Part shown: in pieces, positions 1,561 through 43,058 of the stretch
Layout: every line of letters begins with the position of its first letter
Position numbering within the stretch: the stretch's first letter is position 1
Assembly: GCF_001721685.1 (NCBI RefSeq)
Contig: NZ_CP012502.1
Location: 620,001-684,000 of the forward strand
Length of the DNA stretch: 64,000 bases
DNA from: Salisediminibacterium beveridgei
Lineage (GTDB): Bacteria; Bacillota; Bacilli; Bacillales; Salisediminibacteriaceae
Direction of reading: 5' to 3'
Made by a program: the position numbers and the translations under genes
The notes under the pieces: model-generated
Seen by the model: only the letters and a program-made list of their open reading frames with translations
Told to the model about the DNA's origin: nothing
Database searches by the model: none

Positions 1561-1650
1561 GGATTGATTACGTTCGCTAAGGGATTGAAGTGTAAGTACA
1601 ACGAAGGCTTTCGTTACCCGAATGGGAATTTCAACTTCTGTGAAAGGTGG
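1561..1650 (+). repeat. terminator-associated dispersed repeat, copy 1
   Basis: Starts GGATTGATTACGTTCGC and contains ATTGAAGTGTAAGTACAAC and CGAAGGCTTTCG. It aligns end to end with copies at 9678, 39388 and 43058 (minus). It lies in the direction of csp transcription, just after its terminator. Further downstream (1657-1708) a nested hairpin TGAATCGG/CCGATTCA with inner CCATG/CATGG may belong to the same element. Confidence 0.65.
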
Positions 1651-1751
1651 GTACATTGAATCGGCCCATGCTTTTGTCACGACAGACATGGCAGTAAAAT
1701 CCGATTCATCTGAGCACAGATAAGTTTGTGAAAATCAAAAAAGATTTTTTG

Positions 1752-1778
1752 GTTTTAGCAGGAGATCGATGTGGGAAT
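1752..1778 (+). promoter_or_regulatory. possible sigma-B-type promoter of hpf
   Basis: GTTTTA (1752-1757), a 15-nt spacer and GGGAAT (1773-1778) match the general-stress consensus GTTTAA/GGGTAT with one mismatch in each box. It is about 40 nt before the hpf start. The B. subtilis orthologue is known to be under sigma-B and sigma-H, which makes this reading plausible. The rest of the 349-bp csp-hpf gap holds the csp terminator and repeat copy 1. Confidence 0.45.
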
Positions 1779-1818
1779 GACGAAACATATATACATACCC
1801 GAAAGGAGGAATTTGTCT

Positions 1819-2370
1819 ATGAATTTTAATATTCGAGGCGAAAACCTGGAAGTTACTTCAGCATTGAAAGACTACGTAGAAAAAAAGGTGGGTAAACTTG
1901 AGAAGTATTTTGAAACGACTCCGTCTTCCGATGTCCATGTGAAGATGAGTGTTCTGAATACCGAACAAAAGGTGGAAATCACCATACCAATGCCTAAATT
2001 ACTCCTTCGAGCAGAAGAGAAACATGCGGATATGTACGCCGCGATTGATCTGGTCATTGAAAAGCTAGAGCGACAGATCCGTAAGCATAAAACGAAAGTG
2101 AACCGAAAATTCCGTGGGGAAGACAGCTTGAAGTATATGTTCAAAAATGAGCTGGAGCCACTTGCGGAAGAAGAGATATCCGATGATGAGCTCGAGATCG
2201 TGCGCACAAAGCGCTTTGATCTGAAGCCGATGGATGCCGAGGAAGCGATTTTGCAAATGGATATGCTCGGCCACAGTTTCTTTGTCTTCTCGGACGCGAT
2301 CAGCGGGATTACAAGCGTTGTCTACCGAAGAAGTGATGGCAAATACGGCCTGATCGAACCGGAAGGGTAA
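1819..2370 (+). CDS. hpf: long-form ribosome hibernation promoting factor
   Basis: A 183-residue long-form HPF, which binds the 30S decoding region and drives formation of inactive 100S ribosome dimers in stationary phase or stress. The N-terminal YfiA/HPF domain (about 1-100; starts MNFNIRGENLEVTSALKDYV) is followed by an acidic linker and the C-terminal dimerisation domain (about 125-183; VRTKRFDLKPMDAEEAILQM and a VVYRRSDGKYGLIEP end). Length fits the family. The start is set by AAAGGAGG nine bases upstream; the longer upstream reading begins before this ribosome site. Single-gene unit with its own terminator and a possible stress promoter. Confidence 0.95.
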   Translation: MNFNIRGENLEVTSALKDYVEKKVGKLEKYFETTPSSDVHVKMSVLNTEQKVEITIPMPKLLLRAEEKHADMYAAIDLVIEKLERQIRKHKTKVNRKFRGEDSLKYMFKNELEPLAEEEISDDELEIVRTKRFDLKPMDAEEAILQMDMLGHSFFVFSDAISGITSVVYRRSDGKYGLIEPEG

Positions 2371-2393
2371 ACCCAACTAAAGCGAAACCAACT

Positions 2394-2424
2394 GCACCCC
2401 TGGACTTTTGTCCAGGGGTGCTTT
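2394..2424 (+). terminator. hpf intrinsic terminator
   Basis: GCACCCCTGGAC and GTCCAGGGGTGC form a perfect 12-bp stem with a TTTT loop, followed by TTT, 23 nt after the hpf stop. The next 115 bp to the ptsG terminator hold nothing I can identify. Confidence 0.9.
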
Positions 2425-2537
2425 CAGGTTCATGCTTTTTGATTCAGTCAATTATCCGGGGCCTTTGCCAATCATTCAGACATCCGTGTGAACTAATGGC
2501 TGCCACGGCGAATGCAAAACCGTGAATCGGAAACGGA

Positions 2538-2570
2538 AAAAGGGCCTGAGCGCTTTGCTCAGACCCTTTT
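2538..2570 (-). terminator. ptsG intrinsic terminator
   Basis: On the minus strand GGGTCTGAGC and GCTCAGGCCC pair around a short loop and are followed by TTTTTCC, immediately after the ptsG stop. One G-T pair; A-rich on the other side, so possibly bidirectional. Confidence 0.85.
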
Positions 2571-2575
2571 GTCTG

Positions 2576-4600
2576 TTACGAAATCGTTATTCTTCCTGTT
2601 TCGGTACGGGTGACTGCACCTTCTTTTGTGATCGTGACTGTTTTTTGTTCTGCGAGATTCGTAAAGATAACAGGCGTTGTTGCAGCTTTCGCTTCACGCT
2701 TGACTTTGTCGAGGTCGAAACGGATCAGTTCATCGCCAACTTCCACCTTGTCACCTTGTGAAACGAAGGCTTCAAAACCGTCTCCCTTCATATTTACGGT
2801 GTCTACACCGATATGAACAAGCACTTCCGTTCCGTCTTCTGCGAGAAGACCGACCGCGTGCATCGTCGGGAACAGGTTGACGACTTCACCTTTTACCGGA
2901 GAAACAACGAGGCCGTCTGTCGGTTCAATGGCAAAACCGTCGCCCATCATTTTTTCTGAGAACATTTTATCTGGAACAGTGTCCAGGCTGACAAGAGTCC
3001 CTTCGAGAGGCATTGCCAGATCAAGGCTCGATTCAACTTGGGAAGGAGCAGTTGAAACGTTGGGATCTTCGTATTCAGACGGGGATTTCCCGTTGATGAT
3101 GTCGCGCATCTGTCCTTTAATCGTTTCAGAACGGGGACCGAAAATCGCCTGAATGTTTTTATCAATGACCATCACGCCGGATGCGCCAAGCTGTTTCAGA
3201 CGTTCTTTATCGACTTGGTCTGTGTCATCGACGGCCATACGCAGACGTGTGATGCAAGCGTCTAGATAGGTGATGTTCTCTTTTCCGCCCATCGCCTTCA
3301 ACACTTCATACGGCAGTTCTGTGTTTCCTCCGCTTGCTTTTGCGGAAGATCCGTTACCGTTATCCTTTTCGCGACCTGGTGTCATCAGGTTGAATTTCGT
3401 AATCGCGAATCGGAACCCGAAGTAATAGATGACAGCAAAGACGAGACCGACAGGAATGACGAGCCACCATTCGGTGCGCCCAGGCAGGATGCCGTACAAG
3501 AAGAAGTCAATGACACCGCCGGAGAACGTCATCCCGATCTGTACATCGAGAAGGTGCATGGTCATGAACGATAAGCCGGCAAAGATCGTGTGAATACCGA
3601 ACAACAACGGCGCAACAAACAGGAAAGAGAACTCAATCGGTTCAGTGATCCCTGTCAAAAAGGACGTCAATGCCGCTGAACTCATGATACCGGCAACGAC
3701 TTTTTTGTTCTCAGGACGTGCACAGTGATAAATCGCAAGTGCTGCAGCAGGGAGACCAAACATCATGAACGGGAATTTACCGGTCATGTAGGCACCGGCA
3801 GTAACCTCGGCACCGTCGCGGATCTGGTTAAAGAAGATCTGCTGGTCCCCGCGGATCACTTCGCCTGCGGCATTTGTATACGAACCGAATTCAAACCAGA
3901 ACGGTGAATAGAAAATGTGGTGCAGACCGAACGGAATCAACGCACGTTCAATGACACCGAAAATGAACGTGGACAATGTCCGATTGGCTTCCGTCATGAA
4001 ATACGCCAGGTTATTAAGCCCGTCCTGGGCAAACGGCCAGACGAGGTGCATGGCAACACCGAGCAAAATCGCGGTAGCAGCCGTGACGATGGGAACGAAA
4101 CGCTTTCCGGCAAAGAAACCGAGGTAAGAGGGTAGTTCAATGTTATAAAACCGGTTGTACATATACGCACCCATCAGACCGGCGATGATTCCGCCGAATA
4201 CCCCTGTCTGAAGGGTTGGTATACCGAGCACGTTGGCCAGATCCGGGCTGCCTTCAATGGCCGAAGCGTCAATGCCGCCGATGACACTCATCGTGACATT
4301 CATGATCAGGTAACCGATAATCGCAGCGAGACCGGCGACACCGTCCCCGTCAGAGAGCCCGATGGCAACACCAACAGCGAATAAGAGCGGCAGGTTGGCG
4401 AAGACGATATCCCCGGAAGCCTGCATCATTTCAGCAATCAGGGCGATGATGTTGGAATCAAGAAAAGCAAAACGGGCGATCATGTCCGGGTTTTGCATGG
4501 CGTCACCGAAGGCGAGCAGAATCCCTGCTGCCGGGAGAAGTGCCACTGGAAGCATCAATGAGCGACCGACTTTTTGTAAAATACCAAATGCGTTTTTCAT
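2576..4600 (-). CDS. ptsG: glucose PTS permease EIICBA
   Basis: A 674-residue fused glucose-specific enzyme II that imports and phosphorylates glucose using phosphate from HPr. The membrane EIIC domain comes first (about 1-410, roughly ten hydrophobic segments, starting MKNAFGILQKVGRSLMLPVA). EIIB follows (about 440-515, phospho-Cys in YLDACITRLR), then EIIA (about 545-665, with the VHIGVDTVNMKGDGF active-site region). The start at 4600 is fixed by AGGAGG nearby; the in-frame extension upstream runs back into the regulatory leader. It is preceded by a GlcT-responsive RAT/terminator, a strong promoter inside the end of glcT, and glcT itself, the same arrangement as glcT-ptsG in B. subtilis. 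Confidence 0.95.
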   Translation of the reverse strand: MKNAFGILQKVGRSLMLPVALLPAAGILLAFGDAMQNPDMIARFAFLDSNIIALIAEMMQASGDIVFANLPLLFAVGVAIGLSDGDGVAGLAAIIGYLIMNVTMSVIGGIDASAIEGSPDLANVLGIPTLQTGVFGGIIAGLMGAYMYNRFYNIELPSYLGFFAGKRFVPIVTAATAILLGVAMHLVWPFAQDGLNNLAYFMTEANRTLSTFIFGVIERALIPFGLHHIFYSPFWFEFGSYTNAAGEVIRGDQQIFFNQIRDGAEVTAGAYMTGKFPFMMFGLPAAALAIYHCARPENKKVVAGIMSSAALTSFLTGITEPIEFSFLFVAPLLFGIHTIFAGLSFMTMHLLDVQIGMTFSGGVIDFFLYGILPGRTEWWLVIPVGLVFAVIYYFGFRFAITKFNLMTPGREKDNGNGSSAKASGGNTELPYEVLKAMGGKENITYLDACITRLRMAVDDTDQVDKERLKQLGASGVMVIDKNIQAIFGPRSETIKGQMRDIINGKSPSEYEDPNVSTAPSQVESSLDLAMPLEGTLVSLDTVPDKMFSEKMMGDGFAIEPTDGLVVSPVKGEVVNLFPTMHAVGLLAEDGTEVLVHIGVDTVNMKGDGFEAFVSQGDKVEVGDELIRFDLDKVKREAKAATTPVIFTNLAEQKTVTITKEGAVTRTETGRITIS

Positions 4601-4727
4601 CAGTGTGTTCCTCCTGTTTTGTAATTTGGGTGGCTTTCGTTTGTCATACAAGATGCGAGGCCTCATGCAGGGTGATCCCTGCGGCATCAGTGTATCAGGC
4701 CGTATTCCGGAAAAATGCAAACAAAAA

Positions 4728-4835
4728 GGCATGAGGGAAAAAGATACAGCTCTCCCGACGTCCCGTACAGTGCGTCCACTGCGGGTCAGGTTTACTGCGA
4801 TCCTTTTCTCTCATGCCTGCATAACCAGTAACACG
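4728..4835 (-). promoter_or_regulatory. GlcT antiterminator target (RAT) overlapping terminator
   Basis: On the minus strand the leader contains GTGTTACTGG...CAGGCATGAGAG (4835-4808), the recognisable GlcT binding element. Its 3' part GGCATGAGAGAAAAGGAT (4817-4800) also forms the left arm of a terminator whose right arm is ATCTTTTTCCCTCATGCC (4745-4728), followed by TTTTT. RAT and terminator therefore share bases and exclude each other. GlcT binding would stabilise the RAT and let transcription reach ptsG. A further hairpin lies in the long loop. Confidence 0.88.
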
Positions 4836-4870
4836 GAAAAAGAAAGCGTGTTTCAATTGATTTCGTAATC

Positions 4871-4899
4871 ATATTAATTGATCTTGCGAACGTTGTCAA
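4871..4899 (-). promoter_or_regulatory. ptsG promoter
   Basis: On the minus strand TTGACA (4899-4894), 17 nt and TAATAT (4876-4871). The promoter sits within the last codons of glcT, about 35 nt before the RAT, so ptsG can be made without glcT read-through. Confidence 0.8.
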
Positions 4900-5719
4900 C
4901 AATTCTTTGCAAATGAAGCGTCAGATAAACGGCTTCTGCATCCGGTACAGCTTTTTTCAGCCGGCGTTGCATCACTTTCATCAATTTCCACGACAGGTTG
5001 TAGCAGACAGGGTACTGTTGTTGCAAGACATCTTTCAGAGCATCCTGATTCTCCACATAGTTCTCAAACTGAATCCGTTCAATCGCGTGATGCAAGTGCC
5101 TGACAAGTCGCAAGTAATTCATATCCCTGCGATCGATCTGCATGGCGAGGTTCTCCTCGATGATGTCGACCAGTTCCCCGACCATCTGGGTATGCCGGTT
5201 CACTTCCGCAAGATTCCGATTCGTCAGGGCACTGTGGATATGAAGTGTAATAAAGCCGATTTCGCCAGCCGGGATCCGGACACCGACTTGATGACCAAAC
5301 CATTCGGTCAATTCAGTTGCTACGGCATATTCCTGCGGATAGGCAAGTTCGGTTTCCTGCAGGAACGGGTTATTGATCCCCTGCCCTTGCTGAATCCGCT
5401 TGACGGCGAAATGCAGGTGGTCGGTGAGGCCGACGTGAATGTGTTCGTTCAGTCTCGCACCAAAGCGGTCTTCGAGTTTATCGATGAACTCATTCATAAC
5501 CCCGATGAAGTCCTCCTCCACGTATTCAAGCAGGCTCATATACTGTTCCTGTTCTGCCTGATCCTTTAAGACAAAAAATTTTTCCGCCTGGGTTCCGGCA
5601 ATCTCGTCCCCGGGCTTTTTCCCGAATCCAAGCCCTTTGCCAATAAGCACCACTTCTTCGTACGCCTCGTGGTTGGCGATGACGACATTATTATTCAGTA
5701 CTTTCGTCACACTGAGCAT
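4874..5719 (-). CDS. glcT: PtsGHI transcription antiterminator GlcT
   Basis: A 281-residue BglG/SacY-family antiterminator. The N-terminal RNA-binding CAT domain (about 1-55, MLSVTKVLNNNVVIA) is followed by two PTS regulation domains. PRD1 (about 65-170) has conserved His in HVGLTDHLHFAV and FITLHIHSA. PRD2 (about 175-281) has His in LVRHLHHAIERI and LTLHLQRIV. PtsG phosphorylates such proteins on PRD His to switch them off without glucose. The start at 5719 is set by AAGGAGG; about 47 upstream in-frame codons have no ribosome site. Adjacency to ptsG and a GlcT-type RAT identify it as GlcT rather than LicT or SacY. Confidence 0.92.
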   Translation of the reverse strand: MLSVTKVLNNNVVIANHEAYEEVVLIGKGLGFGKKPGDEIAGTQAEKFFVLKDQAEQEQYMSLLEYVEEDFIGVMNEFIDKLEDRFGARLNEHIHVGLTDHLHFAVKRIQQGQGINNPFLQETELAYPQEYAVATELTEWFGHQVGVRIPAGEIGFITLHIHSALTNRNLAEVNRHTQMVGELVDIIEENLAMQIDRRDMNYLRLVRHLHHAIERIQFENYVENQDALKDVLQQQYPVCYNLSWKLMKVMQRRLKKAVPDAEAVYLTLHLQRIVDNVRKIN

Positions 5720-5771
5720 GTACGTTGGCCTCCTTTTCGTTTTACTGGTCAATTGAGCGTGTGACAGCTTC

Positions 5772-5800
5772 AGTATATCGACAGTCTTCGACAGATTCAA
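5772..5800 (-). promoter_or_regulatory. glcT promoter
   Basis: On the minus strand TTGAAT (5800-5795), 17 nt and TATACT (5777-5772), about 50 nt before the glcT ATG. Confidence 0.65.
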
Positions 5801-5850
5801 GGCATGATGACGGATATTTCCCACTTGAAATGGTTTTATTGAACCGATTC

Positions 5851-5879
5851 TTGTAAGCATGCAGACAAACTGATAAAAT
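5851..5879 (+). promoter_or_regulatory. secA promoter
   Basis: TTGTAA, 17 nt, TAAAAT, about 50 nt before the secA start and divergent from glcT. Confidence 0.6.
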
Positions 5880-5927
5880 CAAGAGTAGCGTTAAAAACGA
5901 GAATATGAAATAAGGGAGTCATGTCCA

Positions 5928-8480
5928 ATGCTCGAATTACTGAAAAAAGTCATTGGCGATTCAGATGGTCGATACTTAAAAAAACTGGAACGCGATAAGA
6001 GAGCAGTAGAAAGTTATCATGAAGAATACAAGCTGTTAAGTGACGAAGATTTAAAGAAAAAGACCGATGAATTTAAAGAGCGGTACCAAAATGGTGAAAA
6101 AGTGGATGACCTGTTGCCGGAAGCCTTTGCTGTCGTACGTGAAGCATCTGCCCGTGTCACAGGAATGACCCACTTCCCGGTACAGATCCTGGGCGGGATC
6201 GTCTTGAACAAAGGCGACATTGCCGAGATGAAGACGGGTGAAGGGAAGACCCTCGTTGCCACCATGCCGGTGTATTTGAACGCGATTACCGGTAAAGGAG
6301 CGCACGTCGTGACAGTGAACGAATACCTCGCGAAACGTGACGCACACGATATGGGCAAGATTTATAATTTCCTTGGGTTGACCGTCGGACTGAATGTTTC
6401 CGGAATGACGAAAGAAGAGAAGCGTGACGCCTACCTTGCGGATGTGACGTACGGAACGAATAATGAATTTGGATTTGACTACCTTCGTGACAACATGGTT
6501 GCGCATAAAGAAGAGATGGTCCAGCGTAAACTTCATTTCGCAATCGTCGATGAAGTGGACTCCATCCTCATTGATGAAGCCCGGACGCCGCTGATTATAT
6601 CCGGAACAGCCCAGCGCCAGAGTGAACTGTATACCGCGGCGAATTCATTTGCACGTATGCTGAAAGATGAGAAAGATTACGTTTACGATGAAAAGACCAA
6701 TAACGTGCAGCTGACAGAAGAAGGCGTCAACCGTGCGGAGCGTGTGTTTAACATCGAGAACCTCTTCGACTCTGAGCATGTGCAGTTAAATCACAACATC
6801 AACCAGGCTTTAAAGGCACATATGACGATGGTTCGTGATGAAGACTATGTGGTCGAAGACGGTCAAGTGGTCATTATTGATCAGTTTACCGGACGTCTGA
6901 TGAAAGGGCGCCGCTTCGGTGATGGCCTCCATCAGGCGATCGAAGCGAAGGAAGGTCTCGAAATCAAGCGCGAAAGTATGACCCTTGCATCGATTACGTT
7001 CCAGAACTTCTTCCGCATGTACGAAAAGCTTGCCGGGATGACGGGTACAGCGAAGACGGAGGAAGAAGAGTTTACAAACATCTATAATATGAATGTCTAT
7101 GCGGTTCCAACAAATGAAGAGATCATTCGTGATGACCGTGCGGATCTCGTCTACAAAACGATGGACGGGAAGTATAAAGCGATTGTTGAGCTGATCAAAG
7201 AACTGAATGAAAAAGGACAGCCTGTCCTTGTTGGTACAGTGAATGTGGATACGTCCGAACTGATTTCCAAAATGCTGAAAAAGCATAAAGTCCCTCATGA
7301 AGTGCTGAACGCAAAGAATCATGCGAAAGAAGCAGATATCATTGCCAACGCAGGGCAAAAAGGGGCCGTTACGATCGCCACCAACATGGCAGGCCGTGGT
7401 ACCGACATTAAGCTTGGCGACGGGGTTGTTGAGCTCGGCGGTTTATTCGTCCTCGGTACTGAACGTCATGAATCCCGCCGGATTGACAATCAGCTCCGCG
7501 GGCGTTCGGGACGTCAAGGGGATCCGGGTGAATCCCGCTTCTGCCTCTCACTCGATGACCCGCTCATGCGGCGTTTCGGTTCTGAGAACATGACGAAGAT
7601 GATGGAACGACTCGGCATGGACGAAGACCAGCCGATTGAGAGCAAGATGGTGTCCCGTGCTGTGGAACAGGCGCAAAAGCGAGTGGAAGGAAATAACTTC
7701 GATGCCCGTAAACAGCTGTTGCAATATGACGATGTCATGCGTGAACAGCGTGATGTGATCTATGAACAGCGCATGGAAGTCCTTGAATCAGACAACCTGC
7801 GCCCTGTTGTTGAGCAAATGGTGGAATCTTCTGTGTCCCGGATCGTAGCTCTTTATGCGCCGGAAGAGGAAGTACCTGAAGACTGGAACCTTGAAGGAAT
7901 GGTCGAGCAGCTCAATCAGATGTTGTTCACAGAAGAAGAAGTGACGCTCGAAGAAGTCACTGGACTTGAGGGAGAAGAAATCGAAGAAACCGTGATGGAG
8001 AAGGTGCAGCGTGAATATGATCGCCGCGAGGAACAATTCACATCTAAAACGATGCGGGAATTCGAGCGCGTCATTCTGCTGCGCACAGTGGATACAAAAT
8101 GGACCAGTCACATCGACCAGATGGAACAGCTGCGCCAGGGCATTCATCTCCGTGCCTATGGACAGATCGACCCGCTGCGTGAATACAAGTTCGAAGGATT
8201 TGAAATGTTTGAGGAAATGGTGGCAAGCATTGAGGATGAGGTCACCCGTTATGCGATGAAAGCACAAATCCGAACCAATCTCGAACGAAAACAGGTGGCT
8301 GAAGAGAGTCAGGCGGTCCATCAGTCTGCAGCCGCGGCGAGCGCCAATCCGCAAGAAGCACAGCAGCAACAGCAGCAAGGTCAGAAAAAACCGTACGTGA
8401 AAGAGGAAGAAGTGGGCAGAAATGAGCCATGTCCTTGCGGTTCCGGTAAGAAATATAAAAACTGCCATGGCAGGAATTGA
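5928..8480 (+). CDS. secA: preprotein translocase ATPase SecA
   Basis: An 850-residue SecA, the motor that pushes unfolded preproteins through SecYEG; close to the usual 840. Walker A is MKTGEGKT (101-108) and Walker B lies in [12 protein letters not shown] (about 207-218). The second helicase half carries [10 protein letters not shown] and [13 protein letters not shown]. After a Gln-rich linker (about 810-830) the protein ends in the zinc-binding [13 protein letters not shown], which in relatives contacts SecB-like factors or ribosomes and phospholipid. An AGGGAG site precedes the ATG. It is probably co-transcribed with prfB, 33 nt downstream, as in B. subtilis. SecG is encoded near 54 kb. 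Confidence 0.98.
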
Positions 8481-8513
8481 TACGAGTAGACAATTCAGAG
8501 GAGAGTGACATTC

Positions 8514-9615
8514 ATGGAAATGAATGAAATGAAAACAGAGATACACAATATGGCTAAGCGATTAGCGGACTTCAGGGGGTCTCTTTGACCTCGAAGAAAA
8601 AGAGGCCCAAATCGCATCCCTGGAAGACCGCATGGCAGATCCGACTTTTTGGGACAATCAGGAAGAAGCCCAGAAGGTCATCGGTGAAACCAATGCATTA
8701 AAAGAGTATGCACACAGCTACCGTGACATGGAAAAAGAGCACGAAGATCTCGAAGTGCAATTCGGGCTTCTGGAAGAAGAGAAGGACCCGGAAATGATGG
8801 CAGACCTGGAGAGCGGTATCAAGACATTGCAACAGAAGCTGAATCAATTCGAGCTGCAAATGCTGTTAAGTGGCCCATATGATGCCAACAATGCGATCCT
8901 TGAACTTCATCCGGGTGCCGGTGGAACCGAATCACAGGACTGGGTATCGCTGCTCCTTCGGATGTACACCCGTTTTTCTGAGCAGATGAATTATAAAGTC
9001 GAGACCCTCGATTATCTCCCCGGCGATGAGGCTGGTGTAAAAAGTGTAACCCTGCAGATTACCGGGCATAACGCTTATGGCCATCTGAAAGCGGAAAAGG
9101 GCGTTCATCGTCTCGTCCGGATCTCACCTTTTGATTCTTCGGGACGGCGCCATACGTCTTTCGCTTCTTGTGACGTGATGCCGGAACTGAACGAAGACAT
9201 CGAGATTGACGTGAAACCCGATGAACTGAGAGTGGATACGTTCCGCTCCAGCGGTGCCGGTGGTCAGCACGTCAATACGACCGATTCAGCCGTTCGACTG
9301 ACGCACCTTTCGACCAATACGGTTGTCAGCTGTCAGTCTGAACGCTCGCAGATTAAGAACCGTGAAAAAGCGATGAAGATGCTGAAGTCGAAACTATTCC
9401 AGCTGGAAATTGAACGCCAGCAGCGGGAAGCGGACGAAATCCGCGGTGAACAGTCGGAAATCGGCTGGGGTTCACAAATCCGCTCCTATGTCTTCCATCC
9501 TTACAACATGGTGAAAGATCACCGCACCGATAAGGAAACAGGAAATGTACAAGGGGTGATGGACGGTGATCTGATGCCGTTTATTGACGCCTATCTGCGT
9601 TCACAAATCGAATAA
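8514..9615 (+). CDS. prfB: peptide chain release factor 2, programmed +1 frameshift
   Basis: RF2, about 366 residues after a +1 frameshift. The first frame encodes 24 codons ([12 protein letters not shown] ... FRGSL) and stops at UGA 8586-8588. Skipping U8586 continues as [12 protein letters not shown] through to 9615. Specificity motif SPF (RISPFDSSG) recognises UGA, and GGQ (SGAGGQHVN) triggers peptidyl-tRNA hydrolysis. The start at 8514 is preceded by GAGGAG at good spacing. The frameshift is the known autoregulatory device: low RF2 leaves UGA unread and favours the shift. Annotations beginning at the in-frame ATG 8632 miss the N-terminus. A terminator follows. Confidence 0.97.
8574..8589 (+). 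promoter_or_regulatory. RF2 programmed frameshift site
   Basis: AGGGGG (internal Shine-Dalgarno-like stretch), three bases, then CUU UGA C. The zero-frame UGA is 8586-8588 and the +1 codon GAC is 8587-8589. This is the conserved bacterial prfB slip site. Confidence 0.95.
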
Positions 9616-9628
9616 GTTTCAGACATTT

Positions 9629-9667
9629 GAGAGCCCCGGGAGAAGCGATTCCCGAGGGCTCTCCTTT
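9629..9667 (+). terminator. prfB intrinsic terminator
   Basis: GAGAGCCCCGGGA (9629-9641) pairs with TCCCGAGGGCTCTC (9650-9663) with one mismatch, then CTTTG. Repeat copy 2 begins 14 nt after the stem. Confidence 0.85.
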
Positions 9668-9677
9668 GTACTTGTTG

Positions 9678-9770
9678 GGAATGGTTAAGTTTGTTAAAGA
9701 AATAAAGTATAAGTGCAACGAAAGCTTTCGCCACCTTCTTGGCGATAAGTCAAGTTTTCTTTACAGAATG
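9678..9770 (+). repeat. terminator-associated dispersed repeat, copy 2
   Basis: Begins GGAATGGTTAAGTTTG and contains AAGTATAAGTGCAACGAAAG, the palindrome CGAAAGCTTTCG, and CGCCA/TGGCG arms. It aligns closely with copy 4 (reverse complement of 42970-43058), including the trailing TTTTCTTTA/GTTTCTTTA. Structured sequence continues to about 9835: CGGAC/GTCCG and GCCAAAT/ATTTGGC inverted repeats. The element may therefore be 150 bp or more here. The longest reading frame across it (to 9818) has no ribosome site and I do not call it a gene. Confidence 0.7.
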
Positions 9771-10036: not shown

Positions 10037-10065
10037 TTTACAGCCTGTATAGGCAGTGATATACT
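10037..10065 (+). promoter_or_regulatory. yvjA promoter
   Basis: TTTACA, 17 nt, TATACT, about 40 nt before the yvjA start. Confidence 0.65.
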
Positions 10066-10107
10066 ACGGAAGGATTTACATAGAATGAGCTGGCAGGTGA
10101 CGTCGTA

Positions 10108-11016: not shown

Positions 11017-11064
11017 GAAAGGGCAAGGAATAAAGTTGTACTGTGAAATTAAGGGGGATTTTGT

Positions 11065-14675: not shown

Positions 14676-14681
14676 TCGATC

Positions 14682-35795: not shown

Positions 35796-35810
35796 GATCA
35801 ACGCACAGAG

Positions 35811-35844
35811 AAATCCCGTATGGCGAACGCCATACGGGATTTTT
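35811..35844 (+). terminator. his operon terminator
   Basis: AAATCCCGTATGGC and GCCATACGGGATTT form a perfect 14-bp stem with a short loop and T-run. The A-run on the other side means it may also stop the convergent carotenoid gene. Confidence 0.92.
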
Positions 35845-35892
35845 GCGATCAAACAGATTGGTTGTCAGAGCCGGTATCGCCGCCGCTGTCCT

Positions 35893-37401
35893 CTATTTCT
35901 TGACGGTATCAGTCAGCTGTTCACTGATCAGATCCGCCGTCAGCTGACCGCTCAACGTGACCATCGGTACACCGCCGCCGGGGTGTGTGCTGCCCCCGGT
36001 GAAATACAGCCTGTCATAAATCTTGCTCTTGGCGGGGATCTTAAATCCGCCGTTGGTCGCTTTGTTGGAGGCAATGCCGTAGATGGAACCGCCGTTTGCG
36101 CCGTAGAGTTCTTCGAGGTCATCCGGCGTGAACCGGTATTCGAACTCGATGCTGTCGCGAAGGCCGGTCATTCCCATCCGTTCAAGTTTATCAAGCACCA
36201 CTTCCCGGTACTCGTCCCAGTCCGTTTCGACTTTCTGGAGCGTCTTCGGCGGAACGTGGGTGAGGACAAACAGATTTTCTTTGCCCTCCGGTGCCTGCCC
36301 TGGATCTGATTTACTTGAGATGCCGATGTATACGGTCGGATCCTCAGCCGGAATACCTTCATCGTAAATCTGTCTGAACTCTTTCTCCTGGTCTTCAGAA
36401 AAGAAGAAGTTATGGTGTGTCGTCATATCGAATGTCCGGTCTGTACCGAGCAGTAAAACGAGTCCGGATACCGTTGGTTCATAGGTTTTCGACAGCTTCT
36501 TTGCCTCTTTTTTCGCAGGGCCCTTTTGCGGCAGGAGGGTCTGGTAAGCCGGAATGGCTTCCAGGTTCGAGACGACGAGGTCCGCCTGATGGAAGGAACC
36601 ATCTGCAGTCACTACCCCTTTTGCCTCGCCATTGTCCACATGAATATGAGCGATTGGCATGTTTGTTGTCACGGGCACACGCAGCTCAGCAAGAAGTTTT
36701 TCCATGCCTTCTGCGATCCCATACATGCCGCCTTTGACGTAATGAATGCCCAGACCGAGCTGCACGTAAATGAGCTGGTTCAAAATAGCCGGAGACTGAT
36801 AAGGATTGGAACCGACGTACATGACGAAAAAATTGAACAACTGTTCAAGGTGGGGGTTGTCAAAATATTTTTTCGTATGATCTGCCACGGTGTGAAAGGG
36901 GTCCATCGCCATCAATTCTTTGAACTGATGGAGTTTCCGGAATTCATTCAACCCGGAGATGCTGGTCTTATAGAAACTTTTCATACACAGCTGATACATC
37001 GACTCGGAGTAGGATAAAAACTGAGAAAATGATGCGCCGGCATCCGGGGCAACTTTGCCCATCTCCTGGATCATATCCGGTAAATCGCCGGTAACATCGA
37101 GGCTGGTGCCGTCTTCGAAGAACGTCCGCCACTGCGGCTCGATGCGTTCAATCGTCATATAATCTTCTACGCGGCGATGCACCCGCTCAAATAACTGATC
37201 AAGTACCCACGGCATCGTCAAAATCGACGGACCCGTATCAAACGTAAACCCCTTTCCGGAACGGCGGTTCAATTTACCACCCAGATTCTCATTTTTTTCG
37301 AACAGCTCAACGTCATACCCTTTCCCTTTCAAGGAAATGGCTGCCGATAAGCCGCCGAGTCCTCCACCAATGACAATCGCTTTCGTTTTCTTTCTTTCCA
37401 T
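35893..37401 (-). CDS. carotenoid desaturase/oxygenase family protein, CrtP/CrtNb-like
   Basis: A 502-residue FAD-dependent amine-oxidase-fold enzyme of the phytoene desaturase family. Dinucleotide-binding IVIGGGLGGLSAAISLK is at 10-26 and FDTGPSILTMP follows. The C-terminal signature FTGGSTHPGGGVPMVTLSG resembles the terminal-oxidase branch (CrtP/CrtNb, acting on 4,4'-diaponeurosporene or apo-lycopene ends) more than the desaturase branch; that is a judgement by eye. It lies on the minus strand, downstream of a methyltransferase in the same direction, interrupting the conserved gene order. GGAGGTG ribosome site. The carotenoid synthase is not in this window. Confidence 0.85.
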   Translation of the reverse strand: MERKKTKAIVIGGGLGGLSAAISLKGKGYDVELFEKNENLGGKLNRRSGKGFTFDTGPSILTMPWVLDQLFERVHRRVEDYMTIERIEPQWRTFFEDGTSLDVTGDLPDMIQEMGKVAPDAGASFSQFLSYSESMYQLCMKSFYKTSISGLNEFRKLHQFKELMAMDPFHTVADHTKKYFDNPHLEQLFNFFVMYVGSNPYQSPAILNQLIYVQLGLGIHYVKGGMYGIAEGMEKLLAELRVPVTTNMPIAHIHVDNGEAKGVVTADGSFHQADLVVSNLEAIPAYQTLLPQKGPAKKEAKKLSKTYEPTVSGLVLLLGTDRTFDMTTHHNFFFSEDQEKEFRQIYDEGIPAEDPTVYIGISSKSDPGQAPEGKENLFVLTHVPPKTLQKVETDWDEYREVVLDKLERMGMTGLRDSIEFEYRFTPDDLEELYGANGGSIYGIASNKATNGGFKIPAKSKIYDRLYFTGGSTHPGGGVPMVTLSGQLTADLISEQLTDTVKK

Positions 37402-37462
37402 GTCTTTACACCTCCAGAATTATTAAAACAGCTGCTTTCACGTATCGTTTTTCTTTATGGGA

Positions 37463-37535
37463 CTGTTATCGTTCATTGTTCATTTCTTACGCTCACGGCG
37501 GACGCCTGCCACAGGAGTCGCCCGCGGATCGGCTC
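37463..37535 (-). repeat. fragment of a GC-rich Bacillales-type intergenic repeat
   Basis: The gap between the two carotenoid-region genes contains CCGCGGGCGACTCCTGTGGC and GGCGTCCGCCGTGAGCG (minus strand), with an imperfect internal hairpin. This resembles the start of GC-rich intergenic repeats seen in many Bacillaceae genomes. Only a fragment appears present, and no second copy is in the window. Confidence 0.4.
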
Positions 37536-37574
37536 ATTGCAACGATCTTCAGTAACACACTGTATGAAAGGAAA

Positions 37575-38126
37575 CTAATAGATAAACGGGATCAGCCGGT
37601 AGCGGCTTTTCATCCATTCTTGATACCGGATGCCAAATGCCTGAATCAAAAGGGTTTCTTCTCCTTTAATCCGGCGGATCAGCGCCGGCAGAGCCGTGAA
37701 GAGAACCAGGATGCTCGCAAGGATGCTTCCTGTGTAAAGAGTGAAGCCCATGACCGTAAAAAGCAGCCCGGAATAAAGGGGGTGACTCAGGATCCGGTAG
37801 GGTCCTGTACCGACCAGGGTATCCCCGTCGCGCACCTGAACGTCTCGGGTGAATTGTCTGCCGAGGTGGAGAATGCCCCAGTACCGAAGCATAATTCCGC
37901 TACCGTAGCAAAACACACCCGCGCCTTGAATAACGGCTGCTTCATATGTCCAGAAGGCAAATTCCCTGGTCACTGCAGCCGTGAAAATGACGAGCAAAAC
38001 CGATGTCAGGATCAGCGGAAAGGAACGCTTTTCGTCGCCCTCAGCTTTTGAGCGGCTTTTGAAGAACAAAAATTCACCGATCCATACTGCTGTAAAAAGA
38101 ATGATCATCCAGTCAGCCCAGTTCAT
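37575..38126 (-). CDS. isoprenylcysteine carboxyl methyltransferase (ICMT) family protein
   Basis: A 183-residue membrane protein with about four to five hydrophobic segments and the ICMT/PEMT signature GPYRILSHPLYSGLL (about 108-122), which binds S-adenosylmethionine, plus the conserved Glu in RRIKGEETLLIQAFG and a YQEWMKSRYRLIP end. Bacterial members methylate lipophilic acids. Bacteria lack prenylated CAAX proteins. Being upstream of a carotenoid oxidase in the same direction suggests it could methylate a carotenoid carboxylate; that is inference. GAGGGGGCC ribosome site. Confidence 0.85.
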   Translation of the reverse strand: MNWADWMIILFTAVWIGEFLFFKSRSKAEGDEKRSFPLILTSVLLVIFTAAVTREFAFWTYEAAVIQGAGVFCYGSGIMLRYWGILHLGRQFTRDVQVRDGDTLVGTGPYRILSHPLYSGLLFTVMGFTLYTGSILASILVLFTALPALIRRIKGEETLLIQAFGIRYQEWMKSRYRLIPFIY

Positions 38127-38239
38127 AAATGGCCCCCTCAGTAAAATTTGGAAATGAACATTGAACTTTACCCGAATTTACAAGTTCTTAACCTGAAGGC
38201 TCGACAAAGTGTGTTAAAATAAGGGGGAAGGCATTGACG

Positions 38240-38268
38240 TTGACAAAGTGCTCTCAGTGCGTTAATAT
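38240..38268 (+). promoter_or_regulatory. trxB promoter
   Basis: Consensus TTGACA, 17 nt, TAATAT. The predicted start lies inside the inverted repeat at 38266-38283. The leader would be about 115 nt. Confidence 0.75.
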
Positions 38269-38283
38269 ACCTAGTAGGGTATA
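38266..38283. promoter_or_regulatory. TATACC-N6-GGTATA operator at trxB start site
   Basis: TATACCTAGTAGGGTATA has perfect 6-bp arms around 6 bases and overlaps the -10 and the predicted +1. The shape resembles operators of the CsoR/CstR repressor family (ATACC...GGTAT). CstR members sense persulfides, so control of a thioredoxin reductase is plausible, but the regulator is unproven. Confidence 0.45.
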
Positions 38284-38385
38284 CGGGCGGCGGCTTTTCT
38301 GAGCAGGAAAGTGGACGAAGTTGGCCGTTATCTATATGATGAATTGAAGATTGATTGTAATTTTTAAAGATTCCAAGGAGCGTGA

Positions 38386-39348
<963 letters not shown>

Positions 39349-39354
39349 CCGAAA

Positions 39355-39380
39355 AAGAAGGGGAACCCCCTTCTTTTTTT
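39355..39380 (+). terminator. trxB intrinsic terminator
   Basis: AAGAAGGGG and CCCCTTCTT pair around AAC, followed by five T, 6 nt after the trxB stop. Repeat copy 3 begins 12 nt after the stem. Confidence 0.9.
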
Positions 39381-39387
39381 GTTCATC

Positions 39388-39460
39388 AGAATGTTTAAGT
39401 TTGCCAAAGGATTGAAGTATCAGTGCAACCCGGTTTTTCATCAAAGCTTCCATGATCAGC
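39388..39460 (+). repeat. terminator-associated dispersed repeat, copy 3
   Basis: AGAATGTTTAAGTTTGCC and AAAGGATTGAAGTATCAGTGC match the first 40-45 bases of the other copies almost base for base; the later part (TTTTTCATCAAAGCTTCC) is strongly diverged. Same orientation as trxB, right after its terminator. Confidence 0.65.
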
Positions 39461-39657
39461 CGCTGTGTCACCTGCGGAAAATAACCGCTTTCATAAACTG
39501 TATTACACTTTTAAATCGTCTGTTATATAAATTGAAAATGCGTTTTGATTCAAGGAATATAAATCGTAACGTCCTCTTAATTCATCTGTAACACAGGTGA
39601 AATAGAAACGCGTTATGATAGAAATAGTAATTGACCCCCTTTTTATTTATATTTTCT
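39461..39657 (+). other. gene-free stretch upstream of an orphan terminator
   Basis: Part of the 436-bp trxB-rapZ gap. It is AT-rich, with a possible TATGAT -10 at 39614-39619 but no clear -35. No reading frame with a ribosome site. Transcription from this region into the hairpin at 39658 would make a short RNA. Confidence 0.4.
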
Positions 39658-39690
39658 GCACGGACGAACGATGTCCGTGCTCTTTTTTTT
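39658..39690 (+). terminator. orphan intrinsic terminator
   Basis: GCACGGAC and GTCCGTGC form a perfect 8-bp stem with a 7-nt loop, then TC and eight T. It is 280 nt beyond the trxB terminator, with no gene between them, so it probably ends a small RNA or backs up trxB termination. Confidence 0.85.
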
Positions 39691-39698
39691 GTGCAGGA

Positions 39699-39728
39699 TT
39701 GGTTATGAAACAAAAGATGTAGTATACT
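39699..39728 (+). promoter_or_regulatory. rapZ-glmR-whiA-crh promoter
   Basis: TTGGTT, 18 nt, TATACT, about 55 nt before rapZ and right after the orphan terminator. Confidence 0.55.
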
Positions 39729-39784
39729 TAGCAAAAGAACTGTTACATGTGTTCTAGTACCCTGACGGTTAGGAGCGTTGCCGC

Positions 39785-40684
39785 ATGAACGAGAAAACAA
39801 CGGGTCATTCAACCATTGATTTAGTGATCATCACCGGGATGTCCGGAGCGGGGAAAACCGTTGCCGTGCAGAGCTTTGAAGATATGGGTTACTTCTGTGT
39901 AGACAACCTGCCACCCGCGCTGATGCCGAAATTCATCGACCTTGTGGAAGGATCCGGTGGAAAAATGAATAAAGTGGCATTGGTCATCGACCTGCGGGCA
40001 CGTGAATTTTTTGACCATTTATTCCAGGCCATCGACGCCATGTCCTTGGAATCCCACGTATCTCCGCGGATTCTGTTTCTCGATGCCGAGGACGGGAAAC
40101 TGGTTTCAAGATACAAGGAAACAAGACGAAATCATCCGCTTGCTGACGGTGGCGGACCTTTGGAAGGCATCCAGGCGGAGAGAGACATGCTCGATGAAAT
40201 GAAGGGACAGGCTCAGACGATCATTGATACAACCGATATGAAGCCGCTCCAGTTGCGTGAGCGGATCATTGAACAGTTTTCCAGTGGAGAAACCGATACG
40301 TTTTCGATTCATCTGCTGTCATTCGGCTTTAAGCACGGTATTCCGATTGATGCGGACCTGGTTTTTGATGTCCGGTTCTTACCGAATCCGCACTACATCG
40401 ATCATATGCGCTCCTTAACAGGACTCGATGATGAAGTGTACAATTATGTGTTGAAATGGAATGAAACCAGAATGTTTATCGACAAATTGGATGATTTGCT
40501 GCAGTATATGGTCCCGCAGTACCAGCGGGAAGGGAAGCAGCAACTGGTGATCGCGATCGGCTGTACCGGAGGGAAGCATCGTTCAGTGACCCTGGCTGAG
40601 TATTTCGATAAAGTATTCTCGAAGATGGACTATCAAACCTTTGTCACTCATCGTGATATTGAAAAAGGGCGAAAAGAAGGATGA
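39785..40684 (+). CDS. rapZ: RapZ/YvcJ nucleotide-binding protein
   Basis: A 299-residue P-loop protein. Walker A GMSGAGKT (18-25), Walker B-like LFLDAEDG, and the C-terminal domain with [11 protein letters not shown], which in E. coli RapZ binds the small RNA GlmZ and glucosamine-6-phosphate. In Bacillus (YvcJ) it hydrolyses nucleotides and affects competence; no GlmZ is known there. TTAGGAG precedes the ATG. Overlaps glmR by 4 bases. Confidence 0.94.
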
Positions 40685-41631
40685 GTCTGAATAAAGCGAA
40701 AGTCGTTGTCATCGGGGGAGGCACCGGCTTATCCGTATTGCTCAGAGGACTGAAAACATTTCCTGTAGATATTTCGGCCATCGTCACGGTTGCTGATGAT
40801 GGTGGCAGTTCGGGAAGGCTCCGGGAAGAATTGAATATCCCCCCACCAGGAGATATCCGCAATGTCCTGGTGGCTTTGTCTGAAGTGGAACCGTTATTTG
40901 AAGACTTGTTTCAGCACCGCTTTGATCAAGGCGCAGGGCTGAGCGGTCATTCGCTTGGGAACCTTCTCATCGCTGGGATGAGCTCAGTGATGGGCGATTT
41001 TTCAAGAGGGGTACAGGAGATCAGCCGGGTGTTGAATGTCAAGGGCACGGTGATTCCTGTGTCAAACCAGCATTTGACACTCCATGCCAGGTTTCGGGAC
41101 GGGAGCACATGTGCGGGTGAATCAAAGATTCCTTTGATCGGAAAACCCATTGAGCGGGTTTATCTTGAACCCGCTAACCCGATACCAAGCTCGGAAGCCA
41201 TTCAGGCACTTGAAGAAGCAAACCTGATCATTTTGGGCCCTGGCAGTCTTTATACCAGTATTATTCCAAATTTGATGGTTCCGGGGATTCGTGAAGGGCT
41301 GATGGAATCCAAAGCACCAAAAGTCTATATCTGTAATGTCATGACCCAACCAGGAGAAACGGATGGGTATACCGTCGGAGATCATATTCAGGCGATTGAT
41401 GATCATCTTCAGGCAAAAGTCATCGACTCGGTGATTATGAACACACAGACCATTCCATTCTCTTACCGTGAACGGTATATGGGGGAAGGCGCCGAACCAG
41501 TTGCGATTGATCAGGCGAGACTTGATGAGTGGAAGATTAGAACAATCGATGATGAATTATTATCCTTTGAGAACGAGCTGCTCCGGCATAATGCCATCAA
41601 ATTGTCCCAACGGCTATTGTCTTTGATGTAG
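40681..41631 (+). CDS. glmR: GlmR (YvcK) UDP-GlcNAc-binding regulator
   Basis: A 316-residue YvcK/CofD-superfamily protein. It starts [18 protein letters not shown], with [21 protein letters not shown] and [14 protein letters not shown] typical of the family. In B. subtilis it binds UDP-GlcNAc and stimulates GlmS to send carbon to cell-wall precursors on gluconeogenic carbon. ATGA overlap with rapZ; whiA follows after 40 nt. Older name: gluconeogenesis factor. Confidence 0.95.
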
Positions 41632-41671
41632 GCATTGTGAACGCAGCAGCAGGTGGGGGTGAAAGAGAACG

Positions 41672-42613
41672 ATGTCATTTGCTTCAGTAACAAAAAAAGA
41701 ATTAACGCAATTGGATTCTGATGATTGCTGTGCAAAAGCGGAACTTGCGGCAATCATCCGGATGAATGGATCGGTTCATATCCGGAATATGCAGATATCT
41801 CTGGATGTGCAGACTGAGAATGCCGCGATTGCCAGAAGAATCTATACGTTGTTAAAGAAAATTTATCAGGTACACGTCGAACTTCTCGTCCGGAAAAAGA
41901 TGAGGCTGAAGAAAAATAATGTGTACGTTGTGCGTATTGGTCGTGAGGCGAGAAACCTCCTGGAAAATATGAAAATTGTTGATGAATCTTTTTCGTTTAC
42001 AAGGGATATTGATAGGGAATTGGTAAGAAAAGACTGTTGCAAACGGGCCTATATCCGCGGGGCTTTTCTTGCGGGCGGGTCGGTCAATCACCCGGATACG
42101 TCCTCGTATCACCTTGAAATCTTCTCCTTTTATGAAGAACATAATGAATCGCTTTTGCAGCTGCTTGATTATTTTGGGATTAAAGGCAAATTGATCGAAC
42201 GGAAAAAAGGATTCGTGCTCTATTTGAAAGAAGGCGAACGGATTAGTGAATTCTTGAATGTTGTCGGTGCGCATCAGGCACTGCTGAAATTTGAAGATGT
42301 CCGGATTATGAAGGATATGCGGAATTCGGTTAACCGGCTTGTAAATTGTGAAACAGCAAACTTGAATAAAACCGTGGGCGCCGCCATGCGTCAGGTGGAA
42401 AATATTAAACTGATCCGCAACACGGTGGGCATAGATGCATTACCTGAACGTCTGCAGGAAATTGCTGAAAAACGTTTGGACCATCAGGATATATCACTCA
42501 AAGAACTAGGTGAAATGCTCAAGGGGAACGTCAGTAAATCCGGCGTCAATCACAGAATGAGGAAAATTGAGGAATTTGCAAACGAAATCCGGGCAGGAAA
42601 GCGTACAAGCTGA
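41672..42613 (+). CDS. whiA: DNA-binding protein WhiA
   Basis: A 313-residue WhiA. The N-terminal degenerate LAGLIDADG homing-endonuclease-like domain (about 1-200; [29 protein letters not shown]) has lost nuclease use in the family. The C-terminal helix-turn-helix (about 225-313; [21 protein letters not shown]) binds DNA. In Streptomyces it controls sporulation; in Bacillus it affects chromosome segregation and division. Conserved cluster with glmR and crh. AGGTGGGGGTG ribosome region. Confidence 0.95.
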
Positions 42614-42697
42614 TACGTTATTTCCTGTCCGTCAGAACTGAAAGCGTTTAAACGACCAGGCAGAGTAGATGACAATAAACCAGAGAGGATGACGAAT

Positions 42698-42955
42698 ATG
42701 ATCGAGAGAACAGTTACCGTGAATCGGAAAGCAGGTTTGCAGGCGAGGCCTGCAGCACTTTTTGTACAGGAGGCAAACCGGTTTGCCTCAGAGATTTTTA
42801 TCGAAAAGGATGGTAAAAACGTCAATGCAAAGAGCATTATGGGGATCATGAGCCTGGCTGTAGGAGCCAATAAGGACGTGACCTTGAAAGTGGACGGGCC
42901 GGATGAGGAAGATGCAATCAATGCACTGGTGGCTTTTGTGGAGAAAGAAGAATGA
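42698..42955 (+). CDS. crh: catabolite repression HPr-like protein Crh
   Basis: An 85-residue HPr paralogue. The PTS phosphorylation His15 is replaced by Gln (AGLQARPAALF), the mark of Crh, while the regulatory Ser46 region is kept (NAKSIMGIMSLAV). HprK phosphorylates Ser46 and Crh-Ser-P acts as a CcpA corepressor; without His15 it cannot take part in sugar transport. The start is ATG 42698 after GAGAGGA; the earlier in-frame ATG 42689 is inside the ribosome site. The length equals that of B. subtilis Crh. Confidence 0.95.
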   Translation: MIERTVTVNRKAGLQARPAALFVQEANRFASEIFIEKDGKNVNAKSIMGIMSLAVGANKDVTLKVDGPDEEDAINALVAFVEKEE

Positions 42956-42969
42956 GTGATTTTGAACAG

Positions 42970-43058
42970 CGATAAAGAAACCCTGTTTTTCGCCAAGCTT
43001 TACTGGCGAAAGCCTTCGTTGCCATAGACTCCAACCCTGTAGCGAACTTCAACATTCC
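42970..43058 (-). repeat. terminator-associated dispersed repeat, copy 4
   Basis: On the minus strand it starts GGAATGTTGAAGTTCGC, then GGCAACGAAGGCTTTCGCCA, TTGGCGA and GGTTTCTTTA, closely matching copy 2. It begins 14 nt after the clpP terminator stem and lies in clpP's direction, filling the gap to the end of crh. Confidence 0.7.

Follow-up and report, generated by a model that had tools for sequence, protein, structure and literature searches.

A family of short two-hairpin DNA elements behind intrinsic terminators in Salisediminibacterium beveridgei and other Firmicutes

The PATE/REP mini-elements of the IS200/IS605 group have two hairpins, leave no target duplication and enter T-rich targets that resemble their own right end. 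Group IIC introns, as described in PMC4424553, insert behind intrinsic terminators and in the direction of the gene. Among shorter repeats, bcr1 is a dispersed sequence of 100-400 bp with a TTTAT motif for which PMC6542083 describes a recombination-like mechanism, repeats of B. cereus are called MITE-like and partly transcribed in UTRs in PMC3446304, and Bhal-1 is given in PMC2267715 as a 74 bp sequence with 36 copies in Bacillus halodurans and a conserved structure. Here we describe short DNA elements with two hairpins that form a large family in many Firmicutes, apparently one without a name. Our reading, to which we give a probability of about 0.8, is that these are small non-coding mobile elements (~75-110 bp) that insert one-way at intrinsic terminators with no visible target duplication.

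The starting point was a window of 64 kb (64,000 nucleotides) from the genome of Salisediminibacterium beveridgei (G000, 3.58 Mb), in which the initial annotation had placed a four-copy repeat at 1561, 9678 and 39388 on the forward strand and 43058 on the reverse. All four copies are present at these positions and on these strands, each behind a hairpin and T tract and co-oriented with the upstream gene (Table 1). The names of the upstream genes (for a cold-shock protein, prfB, trxB and clpP) were checked, the cold-shock protein gene being assigned at family level only, below curated cut-offs. A covariance model (R1), for which 26 copies of the genome were used and only one (L001) of those in the window, was run on the window without filters and gave four strong matches (E 5.7e-19 to 5.1e-7), the next having E values of 0.28 and 3.1; chance alignment is ruled out, since the model recovered three copies that had no part in building it. 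The spacing of 12-16 nt from the terminator stem fits the start at GGAATG that had been assumed, but the element itself begins earlier, at TACTT, ~8 nt behind the stem, and the copies run past the segment first noted into a second hairpin. Most of the right hairpin is missing from copies 1 and 3, with R1 matches of 73 nt each and E values of 1 and 0.038 under a further model, R2. The count of four proved a large underestimate, as scoring 150 of 1056 candidates in the genome gave 129 matches at E<=1, of which 111 reach E<=0.01.

Table 1. Terminators and element copies in the window
Feature	Position	Strand	Basis
Intrinsic terminator of cold-shock protein gene, target of copy 1	1515..1549	+	read directly: AACCCGTTT..GAAACGGGTT and T tract
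Element copy 1, right hairpin decayed	1550..1619	+	R1 match 1547-1619, E 2.6e-7
Intrinsic terminator of prfB, target of copy 2	9629..9668	+	read directly
Element copy 2, complete, TACTT...TTTTCTTTA	9669..9763	+	R1 9664-9766, E 5.7e-19; R2 E 2.1e-10
Intrinsic terminator of trxB, target of copy 3	39352..39380	+	read directly
Element copy 3, right hairpin decayed	39382..39446	+	R1 match 39374-39446, E 5.1e-7
Intrinsic terminator of clpP, target of copy 4	43073..43108	-	read directly
Element copy 4, nearly complete, right hairpin and TTTCTTTA end	42973..43067	-	R1 match 42970-43072, E 1.5e-11

The element is ~75-110 nt in length and has two hairpins and a core that is conserved; its right end resembles a terminator, with a hairpin followed by TTTTCTTTA or TTTTCTAA. 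The arms of both hairpins covary beyond every shuffle, the shuffles ignoring relatedness, while RNAalifold, applied to the S. beveridgei copies, returned a covariation term close to zero and recovered only the right stem. No coding capacity was found; a short peptide was considered, as one reading frame through the core stays open in some copies, and was rejected because the frames shift between copies (by eye) and the hairpin arms covary. A MITE of a DDE transposon was likewise rejected, there being no target duplication at empty sites and the ends, TACTATC and TTTTCTAA, not being inverted repeats. As to the family's name, Rfam scans at gathering score (the window and part of the loci) and up to E 1 (ten loci) matched only neighbours of the element, besides one chance-level mir-471 match outside it, and the literature searched contained no description of such a family, in line with the initial annotation, which knew of none.

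Genome-wide, the preference for a terminator-proximal, co-oriented position is upheld. Under a strict rule an intrinsic terminator lies directly upstream of 70 of 109 S. beveridgei copies; in windows shifted by 75-300 nt the count is 1-4 of 109, and random windows give 29 of 2000. An upstream hairpin of dG<=-10 is found at 78 of 108 copies (distance mode 8 nt) against 17-27 of 108 shifted windows. A looser rule (dG<=-8, T tract not required) finds a hairpin at 86 of 108 copies and also in 26-45 of 108 shifted windows. Many of the 39 of 109 copies that fail the strict rule have a hairpin or T tract by eye, and some have neither (e.g. 2177778). A terminator on the opposite strand occurs at the same place in 30 of 109 copies (17 of 108 in a cross-genus set), and the next ORF upstream is on the opposite strand in 21 of 111. 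That the target is the terminator and not a type of gene follows from copies behind TPP (2) and SAM (1) riboswitches and behind 5S rRNA, RNase P RNA and SRP RNA. The element joins ~8 nt behind the terminator stem, which is roughly where transcripts end. Some copies lie between a TPP or SAM attenuator and its gene, or between 5S rRNA and tRNA, and must therefore be transcribed through; a function as terminator was rejected as the element's main role on account of the copies at attenuators.

Orthologous gaps support insertion, as had been proposed from the four copies: relatives without the element were found at all four window sites and at four of the ten Brevibacillus invocatus sites tried (the other six gave no usable empty site), and no target duplication is visible at the empty sites of B. 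invocatus copies. The clearest view of the join comes from B. invocatus, where at least 43 copies of 98-100% identity lie behind different terminators and ends with at most one mismatch number 48 on the left and 46 on the right. At 31 sites of this form the join falls 7-11 nt behind the stem with a mode of 8, the sites being distributed as 7 nt (5), 8 (16), 9 (3), 10 (5) and 11 (1), with one not scored by the rule. The target reads TTTTNTTR before the join and T after it, with T at -7 in 31/31; weak hairpins (-3.6 to -4.6 kcal/mol) occur at 3/31. The right end is TTTTCTAA in 29/31, and tandem copies are joined as TTTTCTAA directly followed by TACTATC. Within the draft genome that holds the most similar copies (G040), near-exact ends pair ~106 bp apart or at contig starts, the single unpaired near-exact left end belongs to an internally deleted copy, and of eight ends with 2-3 mismatches and no partner the two inspected belong to copies that have decayed or diverged. 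This genome, the one tested, yielded no autonomous copy sharing these ends.

The family is widely distributed. An exact 20-mer of the element is found from Brevibacillus to Desulfosporosinus, a second model matches in 26 of 299 genomes of the phylum (the S. beveridgei genome included), and the core is still recognisable in model matches from other families. One genome, G021, has 45 matches. A phage origin was rejected: a degenerate 20-mer gave 0 matches in viral contigs, none of the 44 viral stretches with a 15-mer matches R2, and 0 phage records carry the element. Plasmid carriage was rejected as a route, the evidence for it being one Sporomusa termitida record and two weak 30-nt matches of a window copy to plasmids; the B. 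invocatus form has no plasmid record.

The target is thus a hairpin followed by TTTTNTTR and, after the join, T, with the join ~8 nt behind the stem and roughly at the transcript end. The right end of the element copies this target (a hairpin and ~8 nt, TTTTCTAA or the like), so that new copies can land behind old ones and form head-to-tail arrays. Given that it has no coding capacity and that the one genome tested showed no longer form with these ends, the element is most likely moved in trans, and we infer that the machinery would recognise hairpin and T tract in one strand. Many copies may be tolerated because landing behind terminators does little harm. The leading candidate for the helper would be the reverse transcriptase or ribonucleoprotein of those group II introns that seek terminators (class IIC), though recombination of single-strand DNA rivals it on equal terms; the link to group II introns is a candidate one that draws on few genomes.

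If group IIC machinery moves element RNA in trans, the element would be a SINE-like parasite of a retroelement, its readthrough transcripts ending at the right hairpin and being joined and copied into terminators chosen as the introns choose them. This account, somewhat short of even odds in our estimate, draws on introns that insert at terminator motifs (this class, according to PMC4424553) and on sister genomes whose introns use the same landing place and orientation: in G002 a hairpin, a T tract and RTA joined to GTGTG in 8/8 introns read, and in G003 one family behind terminators in 5/5 by eye, the class IIC label of both being inferred from position. The comparison with group IIC introns made in the initial annotation was thus apt, and the element shares with class C introns a position behind intrinsic terminators, co-orientation and lack of duplication; its 75-110 nt leave no room for an intron-encoded reverse transcriptase. 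At one orthologous gap G002 carries an intron and G000 the element, but at the other intron locus that could be matched in G000 no element is adjacent; in G003 one intron family even sits inside the element. Group II introns occur in G040, G041, G042 and G043, three genomes with introns having similar, presumably young copies, and there are none in G000, where copies are older. Against this account, the element has no group II RNA or domain V (cmscan up to E 1, ten loci), which bears out the remark that no intron hallmark is visible. The introns begin behind RTA, whereas the element appears to begin before TA, and in G021, for all its matches, a relic is all that was found of an intron, and no reverse transcriptase. 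RVT_1 was not found in G000, G021 or the G040 contigs, its absence from G040 not being firm because one of the contigs there starts within a group II intron. ORFs beside arrays at four loci were taken by eye for housekeeping genes, with no driver gene among them.

Equally probable, to our minds, is that an HUH enzyme (IS200/IS605-like), or an integrase that acts on folded DNA, transposes or recombines the element as single-strand DNA, with the host hairpin and the element's right hairpin as equal cut sites and cassette-like movement. The lack of visible target duplication, the T-rich target resembling the right end, the geometry shared by host terminator and right end, the tandem arrays and the two end hairpins all accord with it; known IS200/IS605 targets, however, are short motifs without a hairpin, and neither an autonomous same-ended copy nor, in the draft sequence, a Y1 transposase was found in G040, which has the most similar copies. 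Y1 transposase is also absent from G001 and present in G000 (7), G002 (1), G003, G021 and G041-G043. An immobile RNA or second terminator useful to the host and selected behind genes would account for two covarying hairpins, a terminator-like right end and a core recognisable in other families, but is improbable given the copies that must be read through, the empty sites in relatives, the decayed window copies and the near-identical B. invocatus copies behind different terminators. Least probable is random insertion followed by selection sparing only harmless terminator-proximal copies: other repeats too lie behind terminators, but the spacing in B. invocatus (30/31 at 7-11 nt, T at -7 throughout) is too tight for chance and its near-identical copies are too recent for long selection.

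Insertion at terminators remains our preferred reading, and it means that in many Firmicutes very small non-coding elements, and not group IIC introns alone, have a site-specific target at the end of transcription. The family accounts for many unannotated intergenic repeats, offers a handle on how mobile DNA locates terminators, and may be a bacterial case of a small element that parasitises a retroelement. Through it, transcribed hairpins come to lie downstream of riboswitch attenuators and stable RNA genes, with a possible effect on readthrough. A broader proposal, which we put forward tentatively and consider doubtful, is a class of terminator-homing mini-elements over Firmicutes, comprising two or more families whose cores are unrelated, in which a right end mimicking a terminator would make element and target interchangeable att sites; these would be bacterial counterparts of SINEs spread through RNA by group IIC machinery, some now serving as intron homing sites.

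Compared with described systems, the element shares two hairpins, lack of duplication and a T-rich target with the IS200/IS605 PATE mini-elements and differs in that its target has a hairpin and that Y1 transposase was not found in draft G040, whose copies are the most alike. As described, stem-loop repeat families such as Bhal-1 (PMC2267715) resemble it in size and structure, and bcr1, said to be restricted to the B. cereus group (PMC6542083), resembles it as a short dispersed repeat; neither description, so far as consulted, ties its repeat to terminators. Group IIC introns (B.h.I1-like) form blocks of ~1.9 kb that include domain V and encode a reverse transcriptase, in contrast to an element of 75-110 nt with no group II match, yet the two have the same landing place at terminators and the same direction.

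The genome that holds the window is a single contig of 3,582,268 bases, of which the window is bases 620001-684000, and the copy of the element behind prfB matched 42 places in it by blastn. A covariance model, R1, was built from an alignment of 26 of these 42 places; of 150 candidates scored with it, 129 pass a cut-off of E<=1 and 111 the stricter E<=0.01. The four copies described in the initial annotation, behind csp, prfB, trxB and clpP, are real, since R1 recovers all of them, three having been absent from its training set; as a copy number, however, four was too low by far, given the 111 places. Also in the window are a tmRNA gene at 58866-59233 (Rfam E 5.2e-87) and, close to it on the opposite strand, a sub-threshold R1 match at 59347-59438 (E 0.28).

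The co-oriented, terminator-proximal position proposed from those four copies is a genome-wide preference. Under a strict rule (a hairpin of -8 kcal/mol or lower and, immediately after it, 6 or more T among 9 bases), applied to 109 of the 112 listed matches, a co-oriented terminator lies directly upstream of 70/109 copies, compared with 1-4/109 in windows shifted by 75-300 nt and 29 of 2000 random windows. Opposite-strand terminators at the same place, present by this rule at 30/109 copies, are read as bidirectional terminators. Of the 39 copies that fail the rule, several have an evident hairpin whose T tract is interrupted and several do not; when the T rule is dropped, hairpins are found in 78/108 copies at a dG of -10 and 86/108 at -8, versus 17-27/108 and 26-45/108 in shifted windows. 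Where both a hairpin and an unambiguous TACTT start can be recognised (67 copies), TACTT most often follows the last G:C pair by 8 nt, and by 6-10 nt in 48 copies; a purine precedes TACTT in 59 of 83 copies. Across genera, 108 sites judged by the strict rule have 57 terminators upstream, or 17 when the opposite strand is read, compared with 11 immediately downstream and 4-5 at distant positions. With ORFs called mechanically, the nearest upstream ORF of the 111 copies at E<=0.01 is co-oriented for 75 and opposite for 21, while 13 have none near and 2 lie within a called ORF. Leading-strand copies number 89 of 111, compared with 742 of 1003 ORFs (replication halves assumed), and there is no clear strand bias beyond that of ORFs.

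The target of the element is the terminator, not a type of gene, and Rfam scans of 51 loci in the window's genome place copies behind several kinds of RNA (Table). By eye, a ribosome-binding site and start codon lie downstream of the element at both TPP riboswitch loci, and a ribosome-binding-site-like stretch at the SAM riboswitch locus; two relatives (L068, L087) also resemble T-box leaders by eye. Because RNA polymerase must pass the element at such attenuator/gene loci, it is no strong terminator.

Table. Structured RNAs upstream of the element, identified by Rfam scan
RNA	Locus	Position of element	Spacing (nt)
TPP riboswitch	L003, L005	directly behind	
SAM riboswitch	L010	directly behind	
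5S rRNA, then tRNAs	L016	directly behind 5S rRNA	
RNase P RNA	L028	behind	107
SRP RNA	L110	behind	55

Read from the left, the element has TAC... and then a left hairpin whose length varies, some forms being short and others having an inner stem. Next come a conserved core resembling AGTATAAGTGCAACTAAGGC, a right hairpin of the form AACTaaGGC..GCCaAGTT and an end sequence, TTTTCTTTA or TTTTCTAA. The core seems invariant partly because loci were picked through an exact match to a 20-mer; 15-20 of its 20 bases match in 20 loci taken from the matches of R2, the second covariance model. Both stems covary: against shuffles that ignore the relatedness of elements, the arms pair better with their own partners than in any shuffle. 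For the left arms of 119 distinct cross-genus elements the score is 2.95/5, with a maximum of 2.56 over 1000 shuffles; for 62 distinct right hairpins the inner arms score 2.64/4, with a maximum of 1.92 over 2000. RNAalifold, run on 26 copies from the window's genome, returns the right stem only, with a double change in 2/11 pairs and a covariation term near zero; folded singly, six copies lie 2.1-3.9 standard deviations below shuffles.

Mobility is best seen in Brevibacillus invocatus, where 43 listed copies are 98-100% identical (40 of 68 candidates scored). When up to 3 mismatches are allowed, its genome contains 50 left ends and 53 right ends; with one at most, the counts are 48 and 46. Ends in the latter set either have a partner about 106 bp away or are themselves situated at contig starts, except for one left end, which comes from a copy that follows a terminator and has lost internal sequence; no autonomous version of greater length was seen among them. 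Thirty-one distinct sites with the B. invocatus form, drawn from 30 loci and 8 20-mer loci and all behind host terminators, have differing upstream sequences that end in TTTTNTTR. At 30 of the 31, the spacing behind the last G:C pair could be scored: 7 nt at 5 sites, 8 at 16, 9 at 3, 10 at 5 and 11 at 1. Hairpin stability is low at three sites (-3.6 to -4.6 kcal/mol). Measured in the same way, the element's own right hairpin lies 8 nt from the element end. Where copies stand in tandem the junction reads TTTTCTAA/TACTATC, and both Pseudalkalibacillus and Terrilactibacillus have arrays in which copies repeat about every 94 bp.

The joined flanks of ten B. invocatus sites were searched in 26 Brevibacillus genomes, its own included. 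At four (L269, L275, L264, L277) relatives align across the junction with the terminator present and the element absent; for the remaining six, this set yielded no junction that could be used. The clearest is L275, where two relatives read CTTTTTTTCA/TAAAGG and B. invocatus reads CTTTTTTTA/element/TAAAAG, an alignment with no visible duplication or loss; the precise junction can be placed only to within 1-2 bases around TA. The window sites likewise have empty counterparts: by eye, the csp, prfB, trxB and clpP gaps lack the element in both relatives of the same genus, G001 and the sister species G002 (8/8), with a plain terminator for csp, prfB and clpP, not for trxB. In G001, an unrelated longer repeat (CAGACTGTAGACAAACTATATTTTGATG...) lies directly behind the clpP and prfB hairpins (L394, L400).

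Across 40 genomes, the window's own included, R1 has matches at E<=0.01 in 15, with 27 in the sister species and none in G001. The element's 20-mer occurs in at least 115 stretches; the matches listed (80 titles) include Brevibacillus, Pseudalkalibacillus, Fictibacillus, Virgibacillus, Sporolactobacillus, Evansella and others, and extend to Desulfosporosinus, Formimonas and Desulfitobacteriaceae. Of 299 genomes from the phylum, 26 had matches to R2 with only 16 candidates scored in each; by genus the figure is 20 of 210, again with the own genome included. Searches of viral and phage sets did not detect the element, and matches were scarce in plasmid searches. Judged by identity, copies look young in Formimonas (0.94 for 12 copies, four of which were assigned on likeness alone) and Pseudalkalibacillus (0.95 for 16 copies); those in the window's genome look old, with a mean pairwise identity of 0.63 and a nearest-neighbour median of 0.77 over 80 copies. 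The young sets were picked by exact 20-mer, but the difference stays, because 8 copies from the window's genome picked likewise reach only 0.81. Two copies in that genome, at C1:2181789 and C1:2196425, about 14.6 kb apart, are identical together with their flanks and are probably a segmental duplication, not two insertions.

Candidate helpers were sought in nine genomes. A Y1 transposase is present in seven (not found in B. invocatus and G001), a reverse transcriptase in six (not found in the window's genome, G021 and B. invocatus) and a group II RNA in seven (not found in the window's genome and G001), the B. invocatus copy being cut by a contig start and that of G021 being one relic. In the sister species, group II introns lie at a hairpin, T tract and RTA/GTGTG in 8/8 copies read. 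By eye, G003, another of the genomes compared, has five copies of one intron behind terminators; four copies of another, whose family (L473-L476) carries a 452-aa reverse transcriptase ORF, lie after AGAATTTATA inside the left part of elements of different subtypes, the element being recognisable on both sides in 3/4 and on the left only in L475. One orthologous gap holds an intron in the sister species and an element in the window's genome; in this comparison, which covered 35% of the latter, chosen around elements, 2/8 intron loci had a match, the second without an element. From these shared landing places, the leading candidate is a helper from group II introns, which by their position would be class IIC, with single-strand DNA recombination a candidate of equal standing.

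A second repeat family in Brevibacillus genomes (G045-G067; L274 flank, L371, L372, L453-L472), about 110 nt long (ACGTATAGGAATTTATAAGCG...GAGGTTTTCTTA), has an architecture like that of the element: its start follows a T-rich tract and in many cases a hairpin, and its end is formed by a hairpin with TTTTCTTA or TTTTTTTA. Among the 22 loci read by eye, several lack a plain upstream hairpin. A short GAAGGCTAATACGTGCGAAGACAGTGTC-like repeat is nested in or adjoins the element at L154, L181 (Desulfosporosinus), L241 and L391.

Among known systems, group IIC introns seek terminators (PMC4424553), and dispersed short repeats of bacilli are described in PMC6542083, PMC3446304 and PMC2267715. No terminator-seeking short non-coding element was found in searches of Rfam and of an open-access library, and we therefore place the element with the short mobile repeats, a known kind; it may possibly represent a new class.
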